64,000 nt of DNA from an uncultured Opitutia bacterium. GTDB taxonomy: Bacteria > Verrucomicrobiota > Verrucomicrobiia > Opitutales > Opitutaceae. The stretch covers positions 1-64,000 of the forward strand of contig CAIRCN010000010.1 in assembly GCA_903877135.1 (NCBI GenBank), given 5' to 3'. Below, piece by piece: positions 442-15,348 of the stretch. The notes below the pieces were generated by a model. It did not search any database and was not told the DNA's origin. It saw only the letters and a list, made by a program, of their open reading frames with translations. Each line of letters begins with the position of its first letter. The first letter of the stretch is position 1. Position numbers and translations under genes: made by a program.

Positions 442-1128
442 CTACCAAAGTTTCTGCACGATCACCCCCTCGTCATCAGGCTTGGACTCTCCGCAGAAAG
501 TGGCTTGGCCTTGGCTAAGATCCAATCGAATGTGGTTGGGAATCTTGCTGACGAACGAACATGAGCCCGGATTGAAGCAACAGGTGTCATTGATGCGCTC
601 AAACCAGGCGTCGGGTTTGTGAACGTGCCCTGAGAGCACTATGCTGTGCTGCGGAAACGAATCTGCTAAATAGCGAACTTCCGCTTCACCTAAATCTCCG
701 GCATCGCAAACAGCCAAACGTGTTTCTGCTGGTGGAACGTGCGACAGGAGCACGACTGGTTCGATTCCGCTTATTTTGTCTACCGGTTCACCCCAGGCGG
801 CACAAACAAAGCGGTGTCCCATAAACAGCTCGTCGGTTCCATCTGTCCGCACTGCTGGGTTCTTACAATGCAAGAAGCTCGTGCCAGCCAACGAGGGCCG
901 CTTGTCGGGCGACCAGTCGTGATTCCCTGAGCAAATAAAAATAGGGAATTGAAGGCCAGCCAACCAACGGTTGATTACTTCACTTTGGTGTTCGACCGAA
1001 ACACTCATTGAAAACCCGTCTATCAAATCGCCTGTCAGACAGACACCATCGTAGTTTGGGGCGATCTTGATCACCCAGTCAAACCACGGCTGGTGGAAGT
1101 GGAGATCGCTAACGTGGAGTATGCGCAT
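442..1128 (-). CDS. Calcineurin-like metallophosphoesterase
   Basis: This 228-residue single-domain protein carries every motif of the dinuclear-metal calcineurin-like phosphoesterase fold: DLH at residues 8-10, GDL at 33-35, GNHD at 68-71, the SHVPP histidine at 130, and GHVH at 167-170. It has no signal peptide, so it should be cytoplasmic. Family members hydrolyse phosphomonoesters or phosphodiesters of proteins, nucleotides or nucleic acids; the substrate cannot be told from sequence. It follows the PP2C gene by about 97 bases in the same direction, making it the second phosphatase in a kinase-VWA-PP2C cluster. That context suggests a role in phospho-signalling or nucleotide turnover in the same pathway, which is inference. 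Confidence 0.9.
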   Translation of the reverse strand: MRILHVSDLHFHQPWFDWVIKIAPNYDGVCLTGDLIDGFSMSVSVEHQSEVINRWLAGLQFPIFICSGNHDWSPDKRPSLAGTSFLHCKNPAVRTDGTDELFMGHRFVCAAWGEPVDKISGIEPVVLLSHVPPAETRLAVCDAGDLGEAEVRYLADSFPQHSIVLSGHVHKPDAWFERINDTCCFNPGSCSFVSKIPNHIRLDLSQGQATFCGESKPDDEGVIVQKLW

Positions 1129-1149
1129 GTGTCATTGATGGGTTGTCGA

Positions 1150-1177
1150 CCCACCGCGGGAAGGGTCCGGCGGTGGG
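1150..1177 (-). other. GC-rich hairpin ahead of the phosphoesterase gene
   Basis: A perfect 8-bp inverted repeat (CCCACCGC / GCGGTGGG, 12-nt loop) sits in the gap between the PP2C stop and the phosphoesterase start, ending about 22 bases before the latter. No T-run follows on the minus strand, so it is not a canonical terminator. It could attenuate read-through or affect translation of the downstream gene. Confidence 0.3.
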
Positions 1178-1225
1178 CGGCATTAGGCAGTTTAGCAAAG
1201 TCTGCGGAGGAAGGCGCCGCGACCT

Positions 1226-2245
1226 CTACCTGGCCTTGCGTTTCTTTGACTTCATCCGGGCTTTTTGATTTTGCCACGGCTCGGTTATACCATCGGCAAA
1301 TGGAAACTCACCCGGCGATGTAGCGGTTGCGGCGGCGGGCCTGAGGTCGCTGGATTGAACTGGCCCCTCATCCAGAATGGGAACGATGTCCGTCGGTGTT
1401 TTCACCAAGTATGCAATCGAACGGTCGTCATCACCACCCTCCAGCCAAAATGGCTTTTCCAGATAAGCCTGCAACTGCTCATCAGACCAACTGGCGGAGG
1501 CAAGCCGGTCGAGGATCTGACCAATACCTGGCGCCGGCTCCTCAGTCAGGGCATTGACGAGTTTGGCGGCAACGCCGTCGCTAAATGCAACGAGCCCAGT
1601 CACGCCGCTGGCGGGGATTAGGCCACGAAGGGCAACGGCACTGGTGCGAGAGCTAGGGCGCACAAATTCTGTCTGGCCGGCCCATTCCCCGCGCTGTGGT
1701 TTTGCAACCAGCGAAACAGTGGAGCTGCGTTGGACCGCCAAGCAACTGTCGCCCACCTGCACCCAACCTACGTGTTTTGATCCCACGATTATTGCGGCCA
1801 AGGTGAAGTCGAACTGCTCTGGCGGACAGGTGTGCGTTTTAGCGAGTGCCAACTGCTCGTCCATGAGCCAGCGGAGGAGCACAACGGCGAGCCGATCCCA
1901 AGCGTCAGCGGCCGTTGAGCTCTCCGCGCAATCCAGGCAATCGGCTATCATGGGCTCAAGCACCCGCACCGCCCGCTTGATCGCGGTGACACCAGCCAAG
2001 GAACCATGGTGCGATAACTTTGCACTGCCCCTACCATCACACACGACGGCGAAGGGCCGGCTGTTCGTCTCGGCAAGTGCCGCGTCCTGGCAAGGGATCT
2101 GACGCCTTAAGTGTTCACTTCCGATGGTGCGCAAAGCCCCGTGAGACCAAGGGCAGCTTAAGTCCTTGGTCGAGTCGGCGGCAAATGGATCAACTGCTGG
2201 ATTGAGCTTGAAGGTTGGCATGATGTTCAGGCGTTGAATGACCAT
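1226..2245 (-). CDS. PP2C-type protein phosphatase of a TerY-like triad
   Basis: A 339-residue PP2C-like Ser/Thr phosphatase. Visible motifs are the N-terminal GSEH...PCQDA block (residues 42-55), the metal-binding DG at 70-71 in VVCDGRGSAK, VGDS near 165, FSDG near 243 and DDDRS near 293, followed by a lysine/arginine-rich tail. The GSxH..xxPCQDA form is what I associate with PP2C proteins of VWA-kinase-PP2C triads. It should dephosphorylate targets of the adjacent kinase. The start at 2245 overlaps the VWA gene by 19 bases; a second ATG at 2221 (MPTFKL) would leave a 5-base gap. Either implies translational coupling, and no clear Shine-Dalgarno decides. Confidence 0.85.
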   Translation of the reverse strand: MVIQRLNIMPTFKLNPAVDPFAADSTKDLSCPWSHGALRTIGSEHLRRQIPCQDAALAETNSRPFAVVCDGRGSAKLSHHGSLAGVTAIKRAVRVLEPMIADCLDCAESSTAADAWDRLAVVLLRWLMDEQLALAKTHTCPPEQFDFTLAAIIVGSKHVGWVQVGDSCLAVQRSSTVSLVAKPQRGEWAGQTEFVRPSSRTSAVALRGLIPASGVTGLVAFSDGVAAKLVNALTEEPAPGIGQILDRLASASWSDEQLQAYLEKPFWLEGGDDDRSIAYLVKTPTDIVPILDEGPVQSSDLRPAAATATSPGEFPFADGITEPWQNQKARMKSKKRKAR

Positions 2246-2973
2246 GAGTTGGTGGGAGGCACGGCGAGATTCTGAGCGCTGGTGCTGGAGCGACTGACAA
2301 TCTTGAGAGAGTCGCTTAACCAGCTGAAGAACTCGGCAAATCGCAGGCCATTGAGACGCTGCACCTTGAGCCTGCTAAACCTTTGCAGAGCTCCGACGTT
2401 CGCGTTTTCCCCAATCGCCACACTGATCACATTCCACCCGTGGTCCACCGCGCGGAGGCGTAGACGATCGGCCGCTTGTTCCCAGCCTGTATCAGTAGGG
2501 TATCCGTCGCTGAGGATGATTAGCCAAGGGTTATACGCCCCGAGATTGTTGGCTAGATAGTCACTGCGCCGGGATTCGATTGCTTTGATGGCAGAGGTAA
2601 CGGCTTCACCTAACGGGGTATCACCGTCAGCTAGCAGCCCCAAGCCTTCATTGCAGCTTACAGACACTTTCTGACCGAACGGAACGATCTCTCGAACGTC
2701 ACCGCCGAATCCCAAGACTAGGGTTTCAAGCCTGAGTGACGCAACACTGTCGGCGGCAACTTCCTTAAAGAATTGATCCAGCCCTTTTGCAGCCTCGCCA
2801 ATGGGGGTGCCGGCCATGCTGCTTGAGGTATCCATTAGAATCGCACATGGACACCGGGGATGTGGATTGTTAACGTGGTCAATACCGTCGGAACTTCCGG
2901 CGGAGACGGTGGCAAGAGTCAGGGCCTGACTCGATGCGTTGAGATGCGATTGTGATGTTGGGGACGTTTTCAT
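2227..2973 (-). CDS. TerY-like von Willebrand factor A protein
   Basis: A 248-residue single VWA domain with an intact MIDAS: DTSSSM near the start, the TPLGEA threonine block and LSDGYPTDTGW. The arrangement and the ending (RFAEFFSWLSDSL) match the TerY group of VWA proteins, which in tellurite and phage-resistance loci travel with a PP2C phosphatase and a kinase. VWA domains bind partners through a divalent cation, so it is probably the scaffold or sensor of the triad. I start it at the ATG beginning MKTSPTSQ, 34 bases after the kinase stop; an upstream ATG at 3054 would lengthen it by 27 unlikely residues overlapping the kinase gene. No membrane segment is present. Confidence 0.85.
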   Translation of the reverse strand: MKTSPTSQSHLNASSQALTLATVSAGSSDGIDHVNNPHPRCPCAILMDTSSSMAGTPIGEAAKGLDQFFKEVAADSVASLRLETLVLGFGGDVREIVPFGQKVSVSCNEGLGLLADGDTPLGEAVTSAIKAIESRRSDYLANNLGAYNPWLIILSDGYPTDTGWEQAADRLRLRAVDHGWNVISVAIGENANVGALQRFSRLKVQRLNGLRFAEFFSWLSDSLKIVSRSSTSAQNLAVPPTNSWSFNA

Positions 2974-3007
2974 GGGTAAGATGTAACAAGCTTGGAATGG
3001 AAAATAG

Positions 3008-3964
3008 TTATCTGGTGGCAACAGATGGCGCCTTGAACTCGAGTGATTGGCCAAAGGCCTTGACGGCTTTGATCCATTCCTCGAGTTGGGGACGTTCGGA
3101 AGGTTGCAGGTGGCCTCCGATGAAGGTTCGTTTGAACAGGCTCATGACCCAGGGGGATAGTGAGCAGTAGCGTGCGAATATCTCTGGAGTCGTGGCCCCG
3201 GTTGCACAGCCCTTGCCACCGAGGAAATGCCGCCCGGCTCGGATATTAGCCTCGGGCGATTCGCCGCCATAAACTTGGTAAGGGTGGCCACCCGCGGTGA
3301 GCACCATGAAAGCAAGAATCGCCATTGAGAAAGTGACTTGTGCCTCAGTGATGGCGGTAGCCGCAGCATCACGATTTAGGCGCTCCGGCGGCTGAAACTC
3401 GGGGGTCATTACGGGACAGAGAAAGGGAGCTTGTCCGGTGCCGGTAGGGATCTGGAAACTGTCGCAGTCGATAAAAGAGACCTCTCCGGTGGTCGGGTCC
3501 ATCAGAAAGTTGTTCATGCTGATGTCGCCCGGATACACCCGTTTCTTGGCCAGAACATCCAAACCAGCCGCCATGTCATGCACGACGCGGCATAGGTGAA
3601 ACTGGGTGAAATGAGGCAGTTCCTTGCTGCGGAGGCAAAGGGCTGTCAGCGGCACAAGGGGAATTCCGGGGACCTTTTTCATGACGAAGCCGGCGACATT
3701 TCCTTGCGCGTCTAAGACCACGGCTTCGGGCCAGGCGAGGCGCCTATGCCCAGCCAATGTGCGATGGCTAACCATCGCTTGAAGTTTCCTTTGGGCGAGA
3801 CTGGTGAGCGGTTTGGAATAAACCTTCACGAGCTTGGTCGGGTGGCCGGCAAGCTCATGAATGGTGCCTTCACCTCCTTTGGCAATGGGAGCTGAAATCG
3901 GAATCGGTTGGCGGTTGTTGGAGTAGTAGAACATCGCGGGATGGTTGATGGTGCGGTTGATCAT
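3008..3964 (-). CDS. Ser/Thr protein kinase of a TerY-like triad
   Basis: A 318-residue protein-kinase-fold enzyme. The glycine loop is KGGEG (residues 29-33), the ATP lysine is K47 in VKVY, the catalytic loop is GDISMNN (146-152) with D147 and N152, and the DFG position reads DCDSF (166-170). A PEFQPPE block near 188 stands for the APE motif. The catalytic HRD is degenerate (YPGD), as in several atypical bacterial kinases of VWA/PP2C triads. There is no transmembrane or sensor domain, so input probably comes through the VWA partner. It is the first gene of the triad and lies 216 bases after the ATPase stop, in a gap that holds an AT-rich palindrome. Confidence 0.85.
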   Translation of the reverse strand: MINRTINHPAMFYYSNNRQPIPISAPIAKGGEGTIHELAGHPTKLVKVYSKPLTSLAQRKLQAMVSHRTLAGHRRLAWPEAVVLDAQGNVAGFVMKKVPGIPLVPLTALCLRSKELPHFTQFHLCRVVHDMAAGLDVLAKKRVYPGDISMNNFLMDPTTGEVSFIDCDSFQIPTGTGQAPFLCPVMTPEFQPPERLNRDAAATAITEAQVTFSMAILAFMVLTAGGHPYQVYGGESPEANIRAGRHFLGGKGCATGATTPEIFARYCSLSPWVMSLFKRTFIGGHLQPSERPQLEEWIKAVKAFGQSLEFKAPSVATR

Positions 3965-4013
3965 AAGCGGGCAGAAGCGCGCCCAAGCTGGGTGCCTTTG
4001 GAACCAATTTTCG

Positions 4014-4038
4014 CTTCACCACTAAGGTGAAATTTTTC
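4014..4038. other. Short hairpin with T-run upstream of the kinase gene
   Basis: TTCACC-ACTAA-GGTGAA (4015-4031) forms a 6-bp stem followed on the plus strand by ATTTTTC. It could be a weak terminator for plus-strand transcription or a leader hairpin for the leftward kinase transcript, which starts about 50 bases away. Evidence is limited to symmetry. Confidence 0.25.
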
Positions 4039-4098
4039 AGGCGTGGAGCCGTGCCAAATATAGGCCGGTCTCACATAGTAATGGGCCTAGCCGCAGTC

Positions 4099-4120
4099 TT
4101 TTTTGGATTTTTCCAAAAAA
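4099..4120. repeat. AT-rich perfect palindrome, possible operator
   Basis: TTTTTTGGA and TCCAAAAAA form a perfect 9-bp inverted repeat around a TTTT spacer. It lies between the ATPase stop and the kinase start, about 135 bases before the latter. A related imperfect palindrome (T-run, GGAAATTTC, then A-rich) lies at 6186-6208, just upstream of the 97-residue gene. The tracts flank the stems on the wrong sides for a simple leftward terminator, so a repressor or promoter site is at least as likely. Confidence 0.35.
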
Positions 4121-4180
4121 ACCGATTTTTGGTGACCGTTTCTCTCAGGCCGTTCCCGCAGAGGAAAACGGACCGAATGA

Positions 4181-5770
4181 CTAGGAGTGCGGATCGAGAA
4201 TGCCCGGATGGACCGGGACTACCGTTTGCTCTATCATAAGCAGACGGGTATAGAGTGTCTCAAGCACGCGAAACCCGCCACGCGTGAAATCAAGATCCTG
4301 CTTTTGTAGTCGATATTCCAGTTTGTCGGCGAGCTCCTTAATGCCGGTGGCTTCCAGCAATTGGAGGATCTCGTCGTGCTCTGGATACGTCATGATCTGC
4401 AACCGGGAATGAAATCTTGCGAGGAGCTCGGGACTCACCTGATTTGAGTTAACAATATCGGCCGCGGTCACTTCGCTCGGCTCGGATATTGTAAACCCTA
4501 TTGTTGGTTCGCAACTCTTAGCGAAAACGGCCTGCCAAGTGCCGGAACCGATCAGAAATAATCTTTGCTCCACGGCCTTCCGGAGAGATGCGACCGTGAT
4601 GGGATCGGAGTCCTGCGGCTTTACCCGATCCGGCCACAGCAGATAATCTTCATACGGCAGTTCGGCCGCACCTTCGACCAGCAGAAAAATATCATTCCAA
4701 ATTCCTGCTGACCACTCCTGAACGGGAGCGGCGCCGCCTGCAGCAACAACATATTTATCAAGCTCGTCGAGGTGGCAAATCATTCGCCGGCGAGGCTGGG
4801 CCACCAGTGTATCCAAAAGCTGAAACAGTGTGGAGCGCGTTTTTGTGTGTTGTGGGACGAAGTCCCCTCGTTGAATTCGCAAGTAATGAGCGTTGATACG
4901 GTGTGCGATTTCCTTGACCAAGGCGCTCTTGCCTGCACCGGTGGGTGCGCAGAGCAAGGGATACAACCGAGGCTTGATGGGAGAGGGCTTTCGCTCTGTG
5001 TCGAAGAAGATTTGCGCAAGCGAAGTGCAGTAATCCAGGATGGTCCTTTGTCGTCTTGTGAGAAAAGTGAGAAATTGCGACGATGGCATAGGTTGGATGT
5101 GCTGAGCATTTTTGACGGGGGAGAGTGCGACCATCGGCATGATCGGTGGGGATTTCTTGGGTAAAGTTGTCGATATAGATCTCTCAAGCGGGGCCTCCAG
5201 GGTCACTGGTGTGGCTCCAAAGGCCAGCAGGGTGTCCGCAGCTATACGCAGGGCTGATTGTTGTGCTAGGGAGGAGCCCTTCCCTGCCTTTGCCACGAGT
5301 CGGGCGAGCCGCGACAGTTGTGCTTTCGCCGGAATAGCTGGTGCGACTTCCAGTGTGTAGCTGGTGAGCGCGTAAGGAAATTTTGCCAAGGCTTCTTCCA
5401 TGAGGTTGGTCGCCTTGCGCAGACGGGGTTTACTGGACTTGAGGCGGGCTTCGAGCGCGATTCGTCGGAATGCGCAGATAAAATCGGCTCGTTTGGAACT
5501 CGAAAAAGCACACGGACTGATTTCCACGTCTGGGGCGAGGAGATACATGACCTGCTCTAGCGAGCGATAATGTTTTTCCAGATCAGGCCCAATTGACTCT
5601 GTGCGAGGAGTGATGGCATGCGATTTTTTTGGTTTTTCAGGTGGGTAGCCGGTGGTTGCGTCGTAGGTCTGACTGAGCACGAGCACGCAATGTAAGATTA
5701 GGTTGTCAGCACGATCTAGCTCGGTGAGAACAATTGGAAGGTAAGGTGTAAATGGCTCGTTTTGATTCAT
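4181..5770 (-). CDS. AAA+ ATPase with a novel N-terminal region
   Basis: A 529-residue protein. The C-terminal half is an AAA+ module: Walker A PTGAGKS (276-282), Walker B LDELD (334-338, D335/E336), a sensor-1-like LFLIGSGT segment, and LLARFHSRL resembling the arginine-finger/sensor region of ClpX-like unfoldases. The first 260 residues are mainly helical and match no family I recognise. The tract near 43-50 is rich in proline and lysine. It sits between the small orphan gene and the kinase-VWA-PP2C triad. AAA+ ATPases often pair with VWA proteins (MoxR-VWA is the best-known case), so a remodelling role on the VWA partner is plausible. There is no signal peptide or membrane segment. Confidence 0.85.
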   Translation of the reverse strand: MNQNEPFTPYLPIVLTELDRADNLILHCVLVLSQTYDATTGYPPEKPKKSHAITPRTESIGPDLEKHYRSLEQVMYLLAPDVEISPCAFSSSKRADFICAFRRIALEARLKSSKPRLRKATNLMEEALAKFPYALTSYTLEVAPAIPAKAQLSRLARLVAKAGKGSSLAQQSALRIAADTLLAFGATPVTLEAPLERSISTTLPKKSPPIMPMVALSPVKNAQHIQPMPSSQFLTFLTRRQRTILDYCTSLAQIFFDTERKPSPIKPRLYPLLCAPTGAGKSALVKEIAHRINAHYLRIQRGDFVPQHTKTRSTLFQLLDTLVAQPRRRMICHLDELDKYVVAAGGAAPVQEWSAGIWNDIFLLVEGAAELPYEDYLLWPDRVKPQDSDPITVASLRKAVEQRLFLIGSGTWQAVFAKSCEPTIGFTISEPSEVTAADIVNSNQVSPELLARFHSRLQIMTYPEHDEILQLLEATGIKELADKLEYRLQKQDLDFTRGGFRVLETLYTRLLMIEQTVVPVHPGILDPHS

Positions 5771-5871
5771 GTGAGTTGTCCGAGGAGAAACTGGCGCAGT
5801 TAGCTATTGATAGTTGTTGCGGCCTTCGCGCAGGCTCGGGTCGCGCAGCAGAAGCGTGATGAATGCGATGG

Positions 5872-6165
5872 TTAGTCCGAGTCGCTGGTTTCTCCTGTGA
5901 GGACGAATTCCAGCTGTCGGGCGTCTCGCACAGTCAGCCCACGGGATTTCGGTGGGTGTGACTGAGACCGGCGATTGCCGTGCCACGCAGCAAAGTGGGG
6001 GTAGACACGGTGAGCGATGGCATATTGCTGAGCCGTTTTTAGACCGTGATTGCGGAATAGGTCTTTTGCTTGGGTCAGAGGAGATATTGCGTCTGGAATC
6101 AAAGCAGCAGCAGCGAGAGCGGCTGCGAGGTTTAGGCGGCGGTGGTCGATGAGGTTCATAGTCAT
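5872..6165 (-). CDS. Small basic protein of unknown function
   Basis: A 97-residue protein that I do not recognise. It has an alanine-rich helical start (NLAAALAAAALIPDAIS), a basic middle with several His and Arg residues, and an acidic end (TGETSDSD). It is followed after 101 bases by the AAA+ ATPase gene in the same direction and preceded by a terminator-like hairpin that separates it from the sigma-like gene. An in-frame ATG at 6159 is an alternative start. It could be a DNA- or RNA-binding accessory protein or a regulator of the operon; the reading frame itself is only moderately secure. Confidence 0.45.
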   Translation of the reverse strand: MTMNLIDHRRLNLAAALAAAALIPDAISPLTQAKDLFRNHGLKTAQQYAIAHRVYPHFAAWHGNRRSQSHPPKSRGLTVRDARQLEFVLTGETSDSD

Positions 6166-6232
6166 TGTATGGCGCTATCTGGCGATTTTTTTGGAAATTT
6201 CAGAAAAAGATGTAAAAGGGCCTGAAGAAAAT

Positions 6233-6256
6233 GGCCCCTCGTGGGTCGGAGGGGCC
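6233..6256 (-). terminator. Rho-independent terminator after the sigma-like gene
   Basis: GGCCCCTC / GAGGGGCC form a perfect 8-bp GC-rich stem with an 8-nt loop, starting 9 bases past the stop of the leftward sigma-like gene. On the minus strand the hairpin is followed by ATTTTCTTC, a modest T-rich tail. It would insulate the regulator gene from the downstream cluster. Confidence 0.55.
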
Positions 6257-6264
6257 AATGGTGG

Positions 6265-7131
6265 CTAGGCGGACAGACGGTCGAGCTCGTTAGATGCTGC
6301 GCCCTGCATCGCGAGGAGCTCGGCGGTAATGGCCTTGGTGGCGTGGGCTTGGCCAGCGGCTGCGCACGCCCTTGTAATATAGTAGGGGGTAAGCGTGGCA
6401 TGCTTGGTCCCCCACACGGAAGGAAGCTGGAGCAAGGCATGGTGGGCAGCGGGGGAAAGAGCTGCGGTCGCAGCCGCGGCGATAGTGCTCGGATCCGAAA
6501 CTTGGGACGTGCCGGTGTCCGTGGAGGCGAAGGAGGCCTCGTTAGCTACGACCGCAGCGTCTAGGGAGACGAATGTGGGATTGCGTCTGCGTATGGGCGC
6601 GGCGCCGTCGGGACGCTTCTTGAAACGCGTGTAGGGGAAGCTCGTGTCACCAAAAAGGCGCCCTTGGGCGAGATTGGGTTTCCTGGGGCAGCGGAGACGG
6701 GCATGGACTCGGTTGAGCAGAAAATTGCTGAGGGTGATGCCTCGGCTGGGGTCGTATTTACCGAGGGAAAGCCAGATTTCGTCGAGTGCGATGGCTTGCG
6801 CTTCATCGGCGGTGTGGAACCGACGAAGTCCGCTGTTGCAACTATAAGTATATGAGAGGCTAACGAGTTTGCGATAGAGGCTGGCGTGGCAGTAATTGAG
6901 GTTGTCTTGTGTTTGGAGGTTGTGCTGTTTGTCTTCAGGAAGTGCCTGATACCAAGTGTCTAATGGCTTGGGGGAGCGGGTCGTCGCTTGGCGACTGGAA
7001 TGCTCTTGGGCGGGTTGAGAGGCGGCAGGGCATGTGGTGGAGCAGCTCATTCTAATAGATAGAGGAGCTGTGATGGTGCTGTTCTGCCGGTTTGTGGTGT
7101 GAGTGCAGGTGTATTCGTTGGCGTTTTGCAT
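6265..7131 (-). CDS. Divergent sigma-70 region-2-like protein
   Basis: A protein of 288 residues, or 261 if translation begins at the ATG at 7050 (MSCSTT). Residues 80-148 follow the sigma-70 region 2 pattern: a helical LYRKLVSLSYTY block, the ADEAQAIALDEIWLSLGKYD segment that corresponds to the core-binding DLxQE-type motif, then DPSRGITLSNFLLNRV like the conserved FDPxxGxxFxxY/W. The C-terminal 100 residues are alanine-rich and only loosely resemble region 4, so promoter recognition may differ or be lost. It begins 47 bases from, and diverges from, the double-HTH gene. A role in transcribing the island is a reasonable hypothesis, not shown. Confidence 0.6.
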   Translation of the reverse strand: MQNANEYTCTHTTNRQNSTITAPLSIRMSCSTTCPAASQPAQEHSSRQATTRSPKPLDTWYQALPEDKQHNLQTQDNLNYCHASLYRKLVSLSYTYSCNSGLRRFHTADEAQAIALDEIWLSLGKYDPSRGITLSNFLLNRVHARLRCPRKPNLAQGRLFGDTSFPYTRFKKRPDGAAPIRRRNPTFVSLDAAVVANEASFASTDTGTSQVSDPSTIAAAATAALSPAAHHALLQLPSVWGTKHATLTPYYITRACAAAGQAHATKAITAELLAMQGAASNELDRLSA

Positions 7132-7178: not shown

Positions 7179-8282
7179 GTGTTGCCTGTTAGGGCGACTG
7201 GCATATATCGTGGAATAATTGTGGATGAGGTATGTTCAGATCGGATCGTGTCAGCGGAAAGCGGCGTTAGCGCTGTGACCGCGATATGTAAAAAGCGGTG
7301 GACGCCTGAGCGGCGTCAGGAAGCGCTGAAGAGTTGGAATCGGCTACGAGAGGATGGATTATCTGTAGAGGCGGCTTGCTCGAGGTGTGGGGTATCGCGT
7401 GGTTGGATCTACAAATGGCAAGATGCGGGCGATGTTGCATCTGGCTACGCGGATCGACGGGAGCGTCATCAGGGGAGAGACGCCGAAGTCTATCAGCGAT
7501 GGTTAGCACTGAAGAGCGTCTCGCGAGTAGCCAGGGAGTTCTCGATGTGCAGAGAAACGGTGCGGCGTATTTTGGACCGGGTCGCTCCGGGAATACGAAG
7601 TGCTCGCAGACAAGGAAGTGCGTCTAAGAGGAATGCTGTGGCGAGTCAGGGTTCAACTCTGAGAGAATTGCAGAAGCATGAGGTGAGGCTTGGGCACAGC
7701 GAAATGACTCTCGATTTGCGCCTGATTAGGAATGGAAGAACTGAGAGAAAGAGACTCATTGCGGAGCATGCAGACTTGATCGCCGATTCTCTGATCGCTT
7801 GCGCAAAGCATATCGCCTCAACGCCGCCACCCTATTATTGGATACTTAAACCTTACGGGCAGATGCCGGATCCTTTGCCGAAGCAATGCGTAAACAGTCG
7901 TCGGTTTTGCTGGTGTAACTGCTCATCAAAAGTGTTGCTGCGATTGAGCCTCCGCTTGGATCCGCCTAACTATGGTCACTATAAACGTTGGTGGACCGCG
8001 GAGGTGGCAGAGGAAAGTTATCATGTTCACGAAGCCGCAATACCTTCTGCGTATATGGAGTTGGTCACTCGTCTGCGATCAAAGGATGCACGTGGCGAGG
8101 AACTGGAGCAATGGGAGAAATCGCTTACGACAGGAATGCCAACAAAGCCGCTTATGAATGTTCTACGCGCACGGTTGGAGGAGTTGGTTGATCGTTGCGA
8201 TGACACCAACGACGGCATTGAAAACGTGCCTTTCGGGCCCATACTGGAAACGCAGGAGGGTGAAGATGAGTTGCCATTCTGA
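7179..8282 (+). CDS. Double helix-turn-helix DNA-binding protein, unknown C-terminus
   Basis: A 367-residue protein from the GTG at 7179; a GTG at 7275 (VTAICKKRW) would remove 32 unconvincing residues. Two helix-turn-helix units are visible: residues 61-80 (VEAACSRCGVSRGWIYKW) and 111-133 (SVSRVAREFSMCRETVRRIL). Such tandem units are typical of transposase and invertase N-termini, but no DDE or serine/tyrosine recombinase core follows. The C-terminal 200 residues hold a Cys-rich patch (CVNSRRFCWCNC) and an acidic tail and match nothing I know. It diverges from the sigma-like gene and is the last gene before the att-like sequences, so it may be a regulator or mobility factor of the island. 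Confidence 0.7.
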   Translation: MLPVRATGIYRGIIVDEVCSDRIVSAESGVSAVTAICKKRWTPERRQEALKSWNRLREDGLSVEAACSRCGVSRGWIYKWQDAGDVASGYADRRERHQGRDAEVYQRWLALKSVSRVAREFSMCRETVRRILDRVAPGIRSARRQGSASKRNAVASQGSTLRELQKHEVRLGHSEMTLDLRLIRNGRTERKRLIAEHADLIADSLIACAKHIASTPPPYYWILKPYGQMPDPLPKQCVNSRRFCWCNCSSKVLLRLSLRLDPPNYGHYKRWWTAEVAEESYHVHEAAIPSAYMELVTRLRSKDARGEELEQWEKSLTTGMPTKPLMNVLRARLEELVDRCDDTNDGIENVPFGPILETQEGEDELPF

Positions 8283-8392: not shown

Positions 8393-8428
8393 TGCTGCAT
8401 TTCTGCTGCACTAACCTATTTTACCTAT
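8393..8428. repeat. Phased short direct repeats beside the att-like site
   Basis: TGCTGCA occurs at 8393-8399 and again at 8404-8410, a spacing of 11 bp or one helical turn. ACCTAT then occurs at 8414-8419 and 8423-8428. They directly abut the tRNA-like remnant. Phased short repeats next to an attachment core resemble recombinase arm-type or excisionase binding sites. Confidence 0.35.
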
Positions 8429-8450
8429 GGAGCGGGTGGACGGAATCGAA
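8428..8450 (-). other. Degraded tRNA-Gly 3' end (probable attachment-site remnant)
   Basis: Read on the minus strand, this stretch begins TTCGATTCC and ends CACCCGCTCCA. That is close to the T-loop, acceptor strand and encoded CCA of a bacterial tRNA-Gly, with one inserted and one missing base. The rest of the tRNA body is absent. It marks the exact change from the lower-GC island on its left to high-GC sequence on its right. tRNA 3' ends are the usual attachment cores of integrative elements. The identification is by recall of the typical tRNA-Gly tail, not by alignment. Confidence 0.4.
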
Positions 8451-8543: not shown

Positions 8544-9896
8544 TCAATTGCCCACCTCGTAAACCTCGACCAGGGCGACGCCGGAGGTGTTGTTGGCGCC
8601 GCTGACGGTGACGGTGTAGAGGGCGGGCTGGAGGGTGACGAGGAGCACGGAGTCCTTGCTGCCGGCCGTGAGTTGGAAGGCGCCCACGGTGTTGGAGGCG
8701 CTGATGATCGGGGCCGAATCGCCCGCGGAGCCCCAGTTATCATTTTGGAAGATGACGTTCCCCTTGGCATCGTTGAGCGCGATGACCGGATCAGCCAGCG
8801 TGCCGGAGACGCCATAGTTGGCCAAGGTCGGACCGACGCAGCGGAGGAGCACCTGCTTCGGCTGGTCACTGGTAATCACAAAGCCGGGGATCATGACGTT
8901 GTCGCCGGTGCCGACGATGCCGCGCGTCGATATATTCACCAGTCGCGGCGAGGTGCTGTCGAGGGTGACGGTGTTGTCGTAGACCTCCACGAGGCCGACG
9001 CCGGTGTTGACGGTCCCGTTGCCGGAGAGGGTCGCCGTGTAGCGGCCGGGGGCCAGCGTCGTGTAGATGACCGCATCGAGCGAGCCGCTAGTCAGCGGAA
9101 AGGCCCCCACCCGGTTCGAGTCGGCGATGATGGTGCTGGCCGTGCCGGCGGTGGCCCAGTTGTCGTTCTGCGTCACCAGGCTGCCGTCGCTCTGCAGCTG
9201 GAGCTTGAGTTGGGGATCCGGCAGGGTGCCGTTGACCCCGTAGGTGGCCAGGGCCGGGCCGACGCCGCGGATGATCACGGGCTTCGAGGTGGAGCCGGTG
9301 ATGACAAAGCCCGCGATCAGGACGTTGTCGACCGTGCCAACCTGCCCGCGCGTGGAAATGTTCACGAGCCGGGAGCCGGTAGGCGTGGGCGTGGGCGTGC
9401 CGCCGCTGGCCGAGACGGTCAGGGTCAGGACCACCACGGGACCGGTGCCGGCGAGGTTGTTGGCGCTCAGGCTGACCGGGTAGGTGCCGGGCACCGTCGG
9501 GATGCCGCTGATGAGGCCCTGGGCGCCGTTGGCGGTGAGCCCGGCGGGCAGTGCGGAAATGTTATAGCTCACCGGCGAGTTGGTCGCGCTGATGAGATAG
9601 GACAGGCTGCCGCCGGCGACCACCGAGGCGCTGGTCGCGCTGTTGATCACGGAGGTCGCGGCGGAGGGCGCCACCGTGACCGTGAGCGTGAAGGGCGCGC
9701 TCGTGCCGGCGGCATTGGTCGCCGTGAGCGTGACCGTGGACTGGCCGTTGGTGGTGGGGGTGCCGGTGAGGGCGCCGGTCGTGGAGTTGAGCGCGAGGCC
9801 CAAGGGGAGCCCGGTGGCGTTGTAGCTCGTGGGCGCGTTGCTCGCGGTGGCCGTGTAGGTGTCTGCCAAGTCCGGCATTAGCACAAGCCCGAACAT
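8544..9896 (-). pseudogene. 5'-truncated Ig-like repeat surface protein
   Basis: The frame holds about 450 residues but no signal peptide, and an in-frame TAG lies about 30 bases upstream of the first ATG. It contains two putative Ig (He_PIG-type) repeats with the LPAGL...G.P...G.Y.V pattern, a Pro/Thr linker (GGTPTPTPTG), then two tandem repeats of about 125 residues. Each tandem repeat starts RLVNISTRG and ends GLVEVY. I know such C-terminal repeats from large exported proteins of Verrucomicrobiota. Homology to the Ig repeat appears to stop near 9,862-9,870, so the gene lost its 5' part, presumably by an integration or deletion. High GC matches the core chromosome, not the island. Confidence 0.75.
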
Positions 9897-10172
9897 CTTT
9901 GAGCAGTCGCCGCCCGCGCCGATCCCGCTACTTATTGCTCACCCTCCTATTCCGCACTGCCCGCACCGACTCGCTGCCTGCCTAGGCCAGTCCATGAAGA
10001 CGATCGCCTATTGTTATCGTGGACATGCCATCTCCTCATCATGTCCCCCTCGACCACCCCCTCTGCGACGCCGTCGAGTTTGGGATGCTTGTCCGCAAAA
10101 CCTCAACAATCGTGACTAAATATCACCGCCAACGCAAAATCAAAGCGGTCGGGTCACCGCTGATGATACACA
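9897..10172. other. Non-coding gap at the truncation point
   Basis: This 276-base stretch lies between the broken Ig gene and the recombinase stop. Only short frames of poor composition occur in either strand, and I see no hairpin, tRNA fragment or repeat. It probably holds the scar of the event that removed the 5' part of the Ig-domain gene. Confidence 0.5.
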
Positions 10173-11519
10173 TCAGGGAGGCAGAGAAGTGGGGGATGCA
10201 CGAAGCCGAATGTCTTCGATTGCTAGCTGCTCATCGATCAGAGTCCGGACGTTCGCCGGAGTCGCGCTGAACAGCCGCTCCCCATCGCCTTTGTCAGCCT
10301 TACCGACGTATCGGTCCCACAACATTTTGGCCCCTTCGTGGCACATGATTAGGGCGGTCTTGTCGGCAGATTCATTGACCGCGACATGGTAAGAAGGAAA
10401 CGCGTGTCTGAGCGAATTGCGCGGTATCGGGATACGCGCCGCGATCAGCAGCCGGGTCTTCCGGTGCATCCAGTCAGACTTTATCTCGCTATGGAATGCG
10501 TCCGGGTGGTCCCACCCTGCTTGCATCCACTCCCAGAATACTGGGGGCATGGTGGTGATGTAGTGCCGCGTCACGGTCTTGATCGCACGCTTGCGGATGG
10601 TCAGGCTCTTGGATACGAGATTGATATCCTCTCGCATGAGTCTTGCGACGGTCGATGGCCGCACCCCAGCAAACACTTCACATGTCAGTCGGCATAGCGT
10701 CCCCCGGTCGTTCTCGAGTGCATAAAGCAGCAGTCCAAGCAACTTGGATGCCGCGATCGCGTCCGGCTTTTCCCGGGTATCCTTACCGAGCTCGATTGTC
10801 TTTGTGGGGTTATCTGGGACTTCTTTGCGGTAATGCTGATACAGCTCAGACGCCTTTTTAATATGATCCTTGATGAAGTCGCGGCTCACCGTCGCCATGC
10901 CGAGCAGCTTGGGCAACTCCTCGATCGCCCAGGTCTTGATCTCCGGCCCGGTCACGTCAGCTAGCAACTTCGCACCGAACCGATCAGCGAATCGCGTCAG
11001 CTTAAGCCGCTTCTGTGAATACGTGCTTGGCTCGAGTAGCCTGTCAGGCTTGTTGTTCAATCTGTCCAACTGCAGCTTCATGTAGTCCGCGACCGCGGCA
11101 GACACCTTCAGGCCGCTCTTCTTCGGTGCGTGTGTATCCCTCCAGGCCATCCATCCAGCGATGACTTCGTGGGGCGGGGTATCGCCGATCGCACGCTTGA
11201 ATTCGCGCCACGACGCGATGTCTGCACGAGATGGGACAAGAGCAATCTCTCCTTCCCTCCTTGCCTCGAGCAGCTCGTCTATTTTTACGACGAGCTCACC
11301 AGTCGTCGCGAAGTAGGCCTGTGGGCGATCGTCACCTACGATCCATTGCACGCCGAAGGGCTTGTTGGCGCCATGCCGGATGGCTAGCAGGGTTATCCCC
11401 GGAGGCAACGTCCGGGCGACACACGGACGCGGCTTTATCTTCCGCTTCCGACGCTTCTTTTCAATCTGCTCGCTATCTGCGTTTTTCATCTGTATCCATC
11501 TGCGTAAAACCGAGCACAT
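10173..11519 (-). CDS. Tyrosine recombinase / site-specific integrase
   Basis: A 448-residue integrase (a start at M11, 11,489, is possible). After a lysine/arginine-rich N-terminus comes an arm/core-binding region (about 135-250) and the catalytic domain. Box I arginine is R287 (FAGVRPST); box II reads NSLRHAFPSY with R371 and Asn at 368 where many relatives have His; the C-terminal His box is MCHEG (H394), and the nucleophile is Y404 in WDRYVG. The gene begins about 65 bases from the 3' end of tRNA-Val and points away from it, the classical position of an integrase at its own attachment site. It probably inserted an element into tRNA-Val; a matching distal repeat was not found in the window. 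Confidence 0.9.
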   Translation of the reverse strand: MCSVLRRWIQMKNADSEQIEKKRRKRKIKPRPCVARTLPPGITLLAIRHGANKPFGVQWIVGDDRPQAYFATTGELVVKIDELLEARREGEIALVPSRADIASWREFKRAIGDTPPHEVIAGWMAWRDTHAPKKSGLKVSAAVADYMKLQLDRLNNKPDRLLEPSTYSQKRLKLTRFADRFGAKLLADVTGPEIKTWAIEELPKLLGMATVSRDFIKDHIKKASELYQHYRKEVPDNPTKTIELGKDTREKPDAIAASKLLGLLLYALENDRGTLCRLTCEVFAGVRPSTVARLMREDINLVSKSLTIRKRAIKTVTRHYITTMPPVFWEWMQAGWDHPDAFHSEIKSDWMHRKTRLLIAARIPIPRNSLRHAFPSYHVAVNESADKTALIMCHEGAKMLWDRYVGKADKGDGERLFSATPANVRTLIDEQLAIEDIRLRASPTSLPP

Positions 11520-11584
11520 CCAGATGCAATGAGAAACATTGGAGGCCGTCTCTCAGAGGTAACTCTCCCTCGTAGCCCTAAAGG

Positions 11585-11661
11585 TGGTGGACGCTCCCGG
11601 GCTCGAACCGGGGACCCCTAGTGTGTGATACTAGTGCTCTAACCAACTGAGCTAAGCGTCC
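11585..11661 (-). tRNA. tRNA-Val (anticodon CAC)
   Basis: A full cloverleaf on the minus strand: acceptor GGACGCT/AGCGTCC, D-arm GCTC/GAGC, anticodon stem CTAGT/ACTAG around the loop ATCACAC, and T-arm CCCGG/CCGGG with TTCGAGC. Loop positions 34-36 are CAC, reading GUG valine codons. CCA is encoded (11585-11587). It is intact and marks the boundary between the integrase region and conserved genes. Confidence 0.95.
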
Positions 11662-11711
11662 AAAATGGGAGGCAGACCGTTAACGGCGACCCGAGCCAAA
11701 TCAACCTTGTT

Positions 11712-12374
11712 TTATTTTCGCGTGGCGATCGGGCGCTGGCGCGATGGAAACAGCGTGCGGCAGATTTCGCAGACCGCGCCGCCGCAACCGCGCGCCGTGC
11801 AATGCTCACGCCCGTAAAAAATGATCCGCAGGTGCAATTGGTTCCAGTGCGCCTCGGGGAACAGTTTCTTCAAGTCGGCCTCCGTCTGCTCCACGCTGCG
11901 CCCGCTGCTCAATCGCCAGCGTTGCGCCAGCCGGTGGATGTGCGTGTCGACCGGAAACGCGGGCACACCAAATGCCTGCGCCATCACCACGCTCGCCGTC
12001 TTGTGACCCACGCCTGGCAACCCCTCCAGTTCCTTAAAAGTTCGCGGCACTGCGCCGCCGTGCCGTTCCAGCAGCAGCCGCGAGAGCCCCGAGATTGCCT
12101 TCGCTTTCTGCGGCGCAAGCCCGCAAGGGCGGATGATTGCCTGAATCTGCGCCACCTGCACCGCCGCCATCGCCGCCGGATTGTCCGCAAGCGCAAATAG
12201 CTCCGGCGTCACCAGATTGACGCGCTTGTCCATGCATTGCGCCGAGAGCAGCACCGCAATGAGCAGCGTAAACGCGTCCTTGTGCTCAAGCGGCACCGGC
12301 GTCTGCGGGTAAATCTCCGCCAGCCACAGGTCGATAAATGCCGCGCGCTCCGCCCGTGAGCGGTAATGTTTCAT
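11712..12374 (-). CDS. nth: Endonuclease III-type DNA glycosylase
   Basis: Bifunctional DNA glycosylase/AP lyase of base-excision repair acting on oxidised pyrimidines. From the ATG at 12374 (MKHYRSRAE) it has 220 residues, the normal length. The helix-hairpin-helix is LEGLPGVGHKTA with its catalytic lysine, followed by the catalytic aspartate in FPVDTHIH. The C-terminal cysteines are spaced C-X4-C-X4-C-X2-C (CTARGCGGAVCEIC) instead of the usual C-X6-C-X2-C-X5-C of the [4Fe-4S] loop, and no cysteine follows, so cluster binding may be altered. A longer frame to 12422 is unlikely. It diverges from gcvP across about 115 bases. Confidence 0.9.
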   Translation of the reverse strand: MKHYRSRAERAAFIDLWLAEIYPQTPVPLEHKDAFTLLIAVLLSAQCMDKRVNLVTPELFALADNPAAMAAVQVAQIQAIIRPCGLAPQKAKAISGLSRLLLERHGGAVPRTFKELEGLPGVGHKTASVVMAQAFGVPAFPVDTHIHRLAQRWRLSSGRSVEQTEADLKKLFPEAHWNQLHLRIIFYGREHCTARGCGGAVCEICRTLFPSRQRPIATRK

Positions 12375-12489
12375 TGGGCTGGCCACACGTTGAAAACAGA
12401 CGGGCTTTCCAATCGGAAACAATTCCTTAATTGCCCGCGTGCAGCCAAATCGCGGTTGCGCACCCCTCCCCGCGCCCTACCGTCGCCAC

Positions 12490-15348
<2,859 letters not shown>

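Follow-up and report, generated by a model that had tools for sequence, protein, structure and literature searches.

TerY-P, as known from Gao 2020, is reportedly an antiphage system that protects against phage. Here we describe a related gene cluster found in a window of 64,000 nucleotides (positions 1 to 64,000 of contig CAIRCN010000010.1, C10 of its genome) from an uncultured Opitutia bacterium, in which genes for an AAA+ ATPase, a kinase, a VWA protein and a PP2C phosphatase follow one another, with a calcineurin-like metallophosphoesterase (MPE) gene downstream. The arrangement AAA-kinase-VWA-PP2C is supported as an ordered, co-inherited cassette in the window and in genome G500 (locus L122), and as far as the contig end in genome G557 (locus L130). 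An earlier note made from the sequence of this window had proposed a self-contained stress or defence module of seven leftward genes at 442–7131, namely those named above together with genes for an orphan and a sigma-like protein. All seven open reading frames (ORFs) were found there, with the MPE, PP2C, VWA and AAA proteins scoring above their Pfam cut-offs.

Comparison with Described Systems

The available text of PMC11090510 gives the TerY-P triad as a TerY-like VWA protein, a PP2C phosphatase and a Ser/Thr kinase with a C-terminal zinc ribbon or OB-fold (the antiphage form). In published work, triads are proposed to be phosphorylation switches in defence, with one form reported as antiphage. 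The window resembles TerY-P in having the same three kinds of protein encoded side by side on mobile DNA, with the VWA, PP2C and kinase catalytic features present. However, no zinc ribbon or OB-fold was found on its kinase, which ends at residue 318 without a CPxC motif; the kinases of L122 and L130 end at residues 309 and 313, and other triad kinases without the motif were found at L020 (genome G029) and L100 (Photobacterium). Strict TerY-P membership was therefore rejected, and the TerY-type triad of the earlier note is better described as TerY-P-like.

Gene order is a further difference. Matches to the triad kinase were identified in 39 of 384 genomes of the class, at 43 places outside the window's own genome, and 16 of these places were fetched. 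Ten of them hold complete triads, nine with long kinases and one cut by a contig end, and all ten are ordered VWA-PP2C-kinase, as against kinase-VWA-PP2C in the window; at L119 the kinase gene precedes the VWA gene. Neither the AAA family nor an MPE was detected by profile at any of the 16 loci, a weak BLAST match to the AAA family (40 bits) being seen at L117. Among plasmids, 55 of 72,556 records matched the kinase, and in seven of eight stretches annotated VWA and PP2C genes come before the match, with an unnamed gene in the VWA place in the eighth.

The YegL, PphC and YegI proteins of E. coli are homologous to the VWA, PP2C and kinase proteins of the window, and PphC dephosphorylates YegI according to the available text of PMC13232886. 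YegI differs in being encoded last and in being long, with a CPWC segment, and no AAA or MPE gene was annotated in the single E. coli stretch inspected.

A ter cluster was also considered and rejected, as no Ter family was found among the 10 ORFs scanned (0.4–11.5 kb, the left side being cut by the contig end); the absence of TerB, TerC, TerD and TerZ genes described earlier holds over this range. In type III-A CoCoNuT systems, the available text of PMC11090510 places EssC-like, SpoVK/CDC48-like and HerA/VirB4-like ATPases next to the triad, the SpoVK/CDC48-like AAA protein having tandem ATPase domains and C-terminal fusions and being encoded between two VWA genes. The window differs in having one ATPase domain in its AAA protein and one VWA gene, although p97/CDC48 is nonetheless the best profile match. 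No McrB-like GTPase, CnuH helicase, HEPN nuclease or CnuE of CoCoNuT types II/III-A was found among the ORFs scanned on this contig-cut stretch.

NTPase-centred conflict systems, in the available text of PMC7159879, have calcineurin-type phosphoesterase effectors, two-transmembrane (2TM) SLATT proteins and NTPases that are DO-GTPases or MoxR, and kinase-PP2C-vWA genes occur in some GAP1-N2 neighbourhoods. As far as that text describes these systems, the window shares with them a phosphoesterase, a possible small membrane protein and an NTPase, but its NTPase is a PF00004-type AAA protein rather than a DO-GTPase or MoxR. No SLATT match was found among three small proteins scanned. The window also differs from MoxR-vWA ternary systems (a MoxR-type AAA, a vWA-effector fusion and iSTAND) in its PF00004-type AAA protein and unfused VWA protein. 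In the literature on TerY, kinase, PP2C and VWA genes and on AAA/phosphoesterase defence, with subscription papers mostly outside coverage, no description of this AAA family or its pairings was found.

Genes of the Cassette

All five genes considered in this section lie on the reverse strand. The AAA+ ATPase (4181–5770, 529 amino acids), which forms the hub of the cassette, was identified by PF00004 (28.7 bits, above cut-off) and by family alignments. It has a single AAA stretch (residues 272–344), and when the family profile was compared with solved structures, the best matches were p97/CDC48-type chains. A single-sequence AlphaFold2 model gave no usable fold (mean predicted local distance difference test score 32.7).

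The Ser/Thr kinase (3008–3964, 318 amino acids) consists of the kinase domain only. It scores 23.4 bits in Pfam, below the cut-off of 31.7, and was assigned to the triad type by alignment with kinases of annotated triads, including E. coli YegI (25% identity); the catalytic residues K47, D147, N152 and D166 are invariant in four aligned sequences. The TerY/YegL-like VWA protein (2227–3054, 275 amino acids), whose true start may lie further downstream, was matched by PF00092 (31.3 bits, above cut-off) and by phrog_28389 (137 bits). Its metal ion-dependent adhesion site is complete, with DxSxS, T and D invariant in four sequences, and it carries no fused domain known to Pfam. It was not matched by the PADLOC TerY model at E ≤ 1, a model that scores two known triad VWA proteins at just 11–12 bits and the VWA protein of L122 at 21 bits.

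The PP2C phosphatase (1226–2245, 339 amino acids) was identified by PF13672 (106.6 bits, above cut-off), and its acidic active-site residues are invariant among the window, L122 and L020. After a gap of 97 bp comes the MPE gene (442–1128, 228 amino acids), whose product was matched by PF00149 (52.6 bits, above cut-off) and retains the metal-site motifs.

The Cassette in Related Genomes

A first search with the single AAA protein found the family in six of 141 genomes, the window's own included, and with a profile the count was 28 of 252 genomes in the window's taxonomic family. In a sample of the phylum it was detected at 1e-25 in three of 263 genomes, all previously known and all within the order. 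Of two scans of named genomes, the first gave no AAA relative and the second at least four. No AAA match was found on plasmids at 1e-3, and partial matches were found in six phage records and at least once among viral contigs.

At 1e-10, a kinase profile matched nine of the 252 family genomes. Four of the matches score above 480 bits and the remainder, in longer reading frames, reach at most 155 bits, a gap that is inflated because the profile was built from those four top-ranked kinases. Three of these four kinase-only triad kinases, those of the window, L122 and L130, are encoded immediately after an AAA-family gene, and they belong to three genera. At L122 the order is AAA (8552–10312), kinase (10309–11238), VWA (11187–11978) and PP2C (11975–12853), with overlaps of 4 bp between the AAA and kinase genes and again between the VWA and PP2C genes. 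At L130 the AAA, kinase and VWA genes occur in the same order, and no PP2C gene is seen because the contig ends just after the VWA gene. The fourth kinase, at L020, heads a kinase-VWA-PP2C set behind a TraG/TrwB-like ATPase.

The three AAA-linked kinases form one clade (support 100/99). The AAA proteins of the same three loci fall within one clade of eight rows (SH-aLRT 95), where those of the window and L122 group with a second copy from the window's own genome (support 99); the AAA tree, like that of the MPE proteins, was a quick search with many open forks. The N-terminal part of the AAA protein can be aligned among the window, L122 and L130 (40% and 27% identity overall) and with the second copy. 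The neighbourhood search for conserved order that the earlier note had called for, made over the 252 family genomes, therefore recovered the AAA-triad arrangement, and the genes are not degraded in all relatives, since intact copies exist. Of the proposed self-contained module, the part that stands is the AAA gene with the kinase, VWA and PP2C genes; none of the loci compared has a relative of the sigma-like or the orphan gene.

The second copy lies on contig C8 (L004:11840–14140) and consists of an AAA gene with one in-frame stop, for which an assembly error is possible, and with most of the triad gone. A short frame follows directly after the AAA end. Its own end is PP2C-like (E 3.8e-8 against the L122 PP2C in a two-protein comparison) and its start is kinase-like by eye, without BLAST support. 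Beyond this frame lies a gene sharing 67% identity with the gene next after PP2C at L122. The PP2C-like end and the L122-like next gene indicate that a triad was most likely once present and then deleted, making this copy most likely a decayed AAA-triad cassette. It is located 1.2 kb from an integrase-like gene that scores below the Pfam cut-off.

The Metallophosphoesterase as a Second Partner of the AAA Family

The surroundings of the AAA gene were examined at 56 loci, which include the near-copies L028/L029, L073/L092, L086/L088, L087/L089 and L128/L129. Left out of this count were G206:C119 (contig edge) and G610, G520 and G528 (short or broken), and G561:C112 was dropped, its coordinates being identical to those of L120 and the two taken as the same contig. 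An MPE gene occurs within 3.1 kb of the AAA gene at 17 of the 56 loci. On the AAA strand it lies downstream in 14 cases and upstream in two (L131, L137), and in one case (L070) the two genes diverge. With even density and independent loci assumed, 0.93 such loci would be expected (Poisson P ~3e-16), a value weakened because the near-copies break independence. The background for this figure was 237 PF00149 matches in ~104 Mb from 25 AAA-bearing genomes, taken without most genomes of L121–L139, and the counting profile came from ten MPE proteins encoded at AAA loci. PF00149 itself confirms the MPE at 10 of the 17 loci (window, L025, L028, L029, L069, L070, L077, L085, L090 and L120), and the L024 MPE is divided between two reading frames. 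No MPE was detected by profile at 20 loci without the AAA gene (333,852 bases), nor on plasmids at 1e-8.

In the MPE tree, a branch with SH-aLRT 95 sets apart 12 rows, the window MPE included and every one AAA-linked; support within this group is low, and several other MPE types adjoin other AAA proteins. Among the examined loci, the window alone was seen with both arms, triad and MPE. The earlier note had suggested that two phosphatases reset signalling. Since the MPE accompanies the AAA family and not the triad, a role as an effector or nucleotide-cleaving arm is more probable for it than one as a second protein phosphatase.

Downstream of the MPE gene by 121 bp, on the same reverse strand, is a small ORF (123–320) encoding 65 amino acids with three hydrophobic stretches, a possible membrane partner. 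It has no Pfam match. It is placed like the small hydrophobic proteins that follow the MPE in L024, L025 and L120, with no similarity to these detected. A four-gene unit of AAA, MPE, a 75-aa hydrophobic protein and a ~145-aa protein was observed in four genomes, at these three loci and, with weaker matches, at L121, where a recombinase gene comes after the AAA gene. In L120 the ~145-aa protein has no Pfam match and the 75-aa protein a sub-threshold match only. A different set was observed at L068:7917–11244, consisting of a PD-(D/E)XK-like nuclease (just below cut-off), the AAA protein, a 154-aa protein and a PP2C. The first genes of L123 are similar to those of L068, the contig ending 1.1 kb past the AAA gene.

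Conflict and Mobility Genes beside AAA Relatives

At L086, the locus to which this PADLOC assignment applies, cyclase, phospholipase and E2 genes of a cyclic oligonucleotide-based antiphage signalling system (CBASS) lie 0.1–4 kb from the AAA gene. The E2 and AAA genes share a strand and are 112 bp apart, the AAA gene coming second, and the cyclase and phospholipase genes lie upstream. At L088 and L072 AAA relatives were likewise observed beside CBASS genes, by similarity to L086. Other neighbours of AAA genes are type I methyltransferases (L078, L079), AbiEii (L021) and AbiLi (L074), and a PDC-M36A gene is found upstream of the L122 AAA gene.

Tyrosine recombinases of ~190–240 amino acids with only the catalytic domain were identified within 400 bp of the AAA gene at eight of the 56 loci (L021, L025, L121, L130, L131, L132, L134 and L136), with a profile built mostly from those same eight loci; PF00589 was present in both of the recombinases tested.

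The Island and Its Remaining Genes

The cassette is carried on a tRNA-targeted mobile island. Window base 1 is the first base of the contig, because of which the island is cut off on its left. On the right it ends at an integration scar, as had been noted earlier, which proved to be an exact 23-bp copy of the 3' end of tRNA-Gly(TCC) (8428–8450, forward strand, by sequence match). The lower GC content claimed for this DNA was likewise confirmed, at 0.51–0.59 over 1–9 kb against 0.58–0.72 past 12 kb; third-position GC is 0.57–0.64 in five cassette genes against 0.92 (He_PIG) and 0.76 (nth) further right. The tRNA-Gly(TCC) 3' end occurs four times in the genome (window 8428–8450; C2:11–33; C26:29124–29146; C26:41944–41966), including the intact gene at the end of contig C26. 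The copies at C2:11–33 and C26:41944–41966 sit at contig ends, and by eye the island-side sequence at the scar resembles the stretch after tRNA-Gly on C2. The tRNA-Gly(TCC) site looks like an integration hotspot.

Outside the scar, an integrase gene (10173–11519) adjoins a different tRNA gene, tRNA-Val (11585–11661), and perhaps marks a second or nested element. Between scar and integrase lies an Ig-like He_PIG gene (8544–9896), a host-type gene. No empty site could be recovered in the same-genus genome G001, where the surroundings of tRNA-Val have been rearranged and many places match the window's He_PIG region.

Upstream of the AAA gene, on the reverse strand, are the orphan (5872–6165, 97 amino acids) and the sigma-like gene (6265–7131, 288 amino acids). 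The orphan label stands, as no significant match was found in Pfam, PADLOC, PHROGs or NCBIfam; there was none at all in the first three at E ≤ 1 and one sub-threshold match (13 bits) in NCBIfam. The sigma-like label is weak, with 13.8 bits for Sigma70_r2 against a cut-off of 24. A further island gene (7179–8282, forward strand) encodes a 367-aa protein with transposase-like helix-turn-helix (HTH) domains. No locus compared contains a relative of the sigma-like, orphan or HTH gene. These three and the integrase gene were ruled out as parts of the cassette for lack of such relatives, the orphan probably lying outside it.

An AT-rich palindrome between the AAA and kinase genes (4097–4124) is a candidate operator and folds better than shuffled sequences (z −2.71). 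Another AT-rich palindrome (6183–6210), less perfect than the first, precedes the orphan-AAA unit and folds no better than shuffles. A pattern derived from the palindromes matches the window eight times when up to three mismatches are allowed, where 0.72 matches would be expected; six of the eight are overlapping hits at the two palindromes. No counterpart was found in L122, and other loci hold a few scattered near-matches. The palindromes could co-regulate both halves of the window cassette, halves that in L122 overlap as one unit.

Proposed Working and Alternative Explanations

We read the cassette as a mobile, self-regulated conflict device, for defence or stress, built on a ring-forming AAA+ ATPase, and give this reading, which is drawn from sequence comparison, a probability of about 0.5. 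In such a device the AAA protein would form a p97-like ring that remodels a target or restrains an effector. With the metal-binding VWA protein as its scaffold, the kinase may phosphorylate the ring or a partner on a stress or invader cue, and PP2C would strip the phosphate and reset the switch. Output would fall to the MPE, which would cleave a nucleotide signal or nucleic acid, perhaps in concert with a small membrane protein. A conflict role is the best guess because some AAA relatives adjoin CBASS, type I restriction-modification or Abi genes. It is a more tentative proposal that the AAA family is the hub of undescribed modular conflict systems in Verrucomicrobiota. Different arms would plug into this hub, namely a kinase/VWA/PP2C switch, one of several MPE kinds along with small membrane proteins, or a nuclease of the PD-(D/E)XK-like type together with PP2C. 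The window would then be a rare case with two arms, its phosphoesterase effector being gated by phospho-signalling.

A number of results weigh against this reading. PADLOC identified no known defence system in the window, and its only match to the window MPE is the candidate PDC-S10 (31 bits). The defence neighbours cannot gauge enrichment because they come from nine proteins of seven loci that were picked by hand and not sampled, eight of which matched and one of which, that of L121, did not. Within the eight-row AAA clade, L124, L125 and L129 have no triad and L128 has only 291 bp downstream, and the C8 relic indicates that the cassette can be lost. The link between AAA and MPE is loose, since no MPE was detected at 39 of the 56 loci and its presence on the AAA tree needs nine changes, so that partners come and go. 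At the two other triad loci, L122 and L130, no MPE was seen, the L130 contig ending 1.8 kb past the AAA gene. This last result, the 97-bp gap before the MPE gene and the position of the window AAA protein in the triad clade, apart from the main MPE-linked clade, would also be accounted for if two independent modules were present, the AAA-triad as one unit and the MPE, with the 65-aa ORF, acquired from an AAA-MPE element and working alone or not at all. We find this explanation doubtful, as the window MPE groups with AAA-associated MPE proteins, is encoded on the same strand and has kept its metal-site motifs.

A role in the upkeep of the mobile element itself, with the AAA protein serving tyrosine recombinases or transfer (integration, excision or timing) and the triad signalling when to move, is the chief alternative to a conflict role but seems unlikely. 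It would fit the recombinases found close to the AAA gene, the sub-cut-off integrase-like gene near the C8 relic, the TraG/TrwB-like ATPase ahead of the G029 triad and the ending of the island at a tRNA scar. However, in the window and L122 no such recombinase was found next to the AAA gene, and recombinase matches were lacking altogether at 44 of the 56 loci. Two such recombinases are also present in the control locus L020, which is without this AAA family, and for this reason they may be just island genes. Moreover, phosphoesterases of several types recur with the AAA gene, which is unusual for integration modules. The frequency of triad kinases in class genomes and on plasmids might be taken to mean that an ordinary YegI/PphC/YegL-type housekeeping triad adjoins an ATPase by chance in a gene-rich island. 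Such chance proximity was rejected as highly improbable, given the order and clades shared by three genera, the relic, and the lack of the AAA family and MPE by profile, the weak match at L117 aside, at the class kinase loci fetched.

Kinase/VWA/PP2C triads are widespread. Where one is linked to just one AAA protein, as here, the candidate substrates can be narrowed to a few, and the phosphoesterase partner of the AAA family suggests an output. With this, poorly described island proteins of Verrucomicrobiota become a defined gene family with partners.

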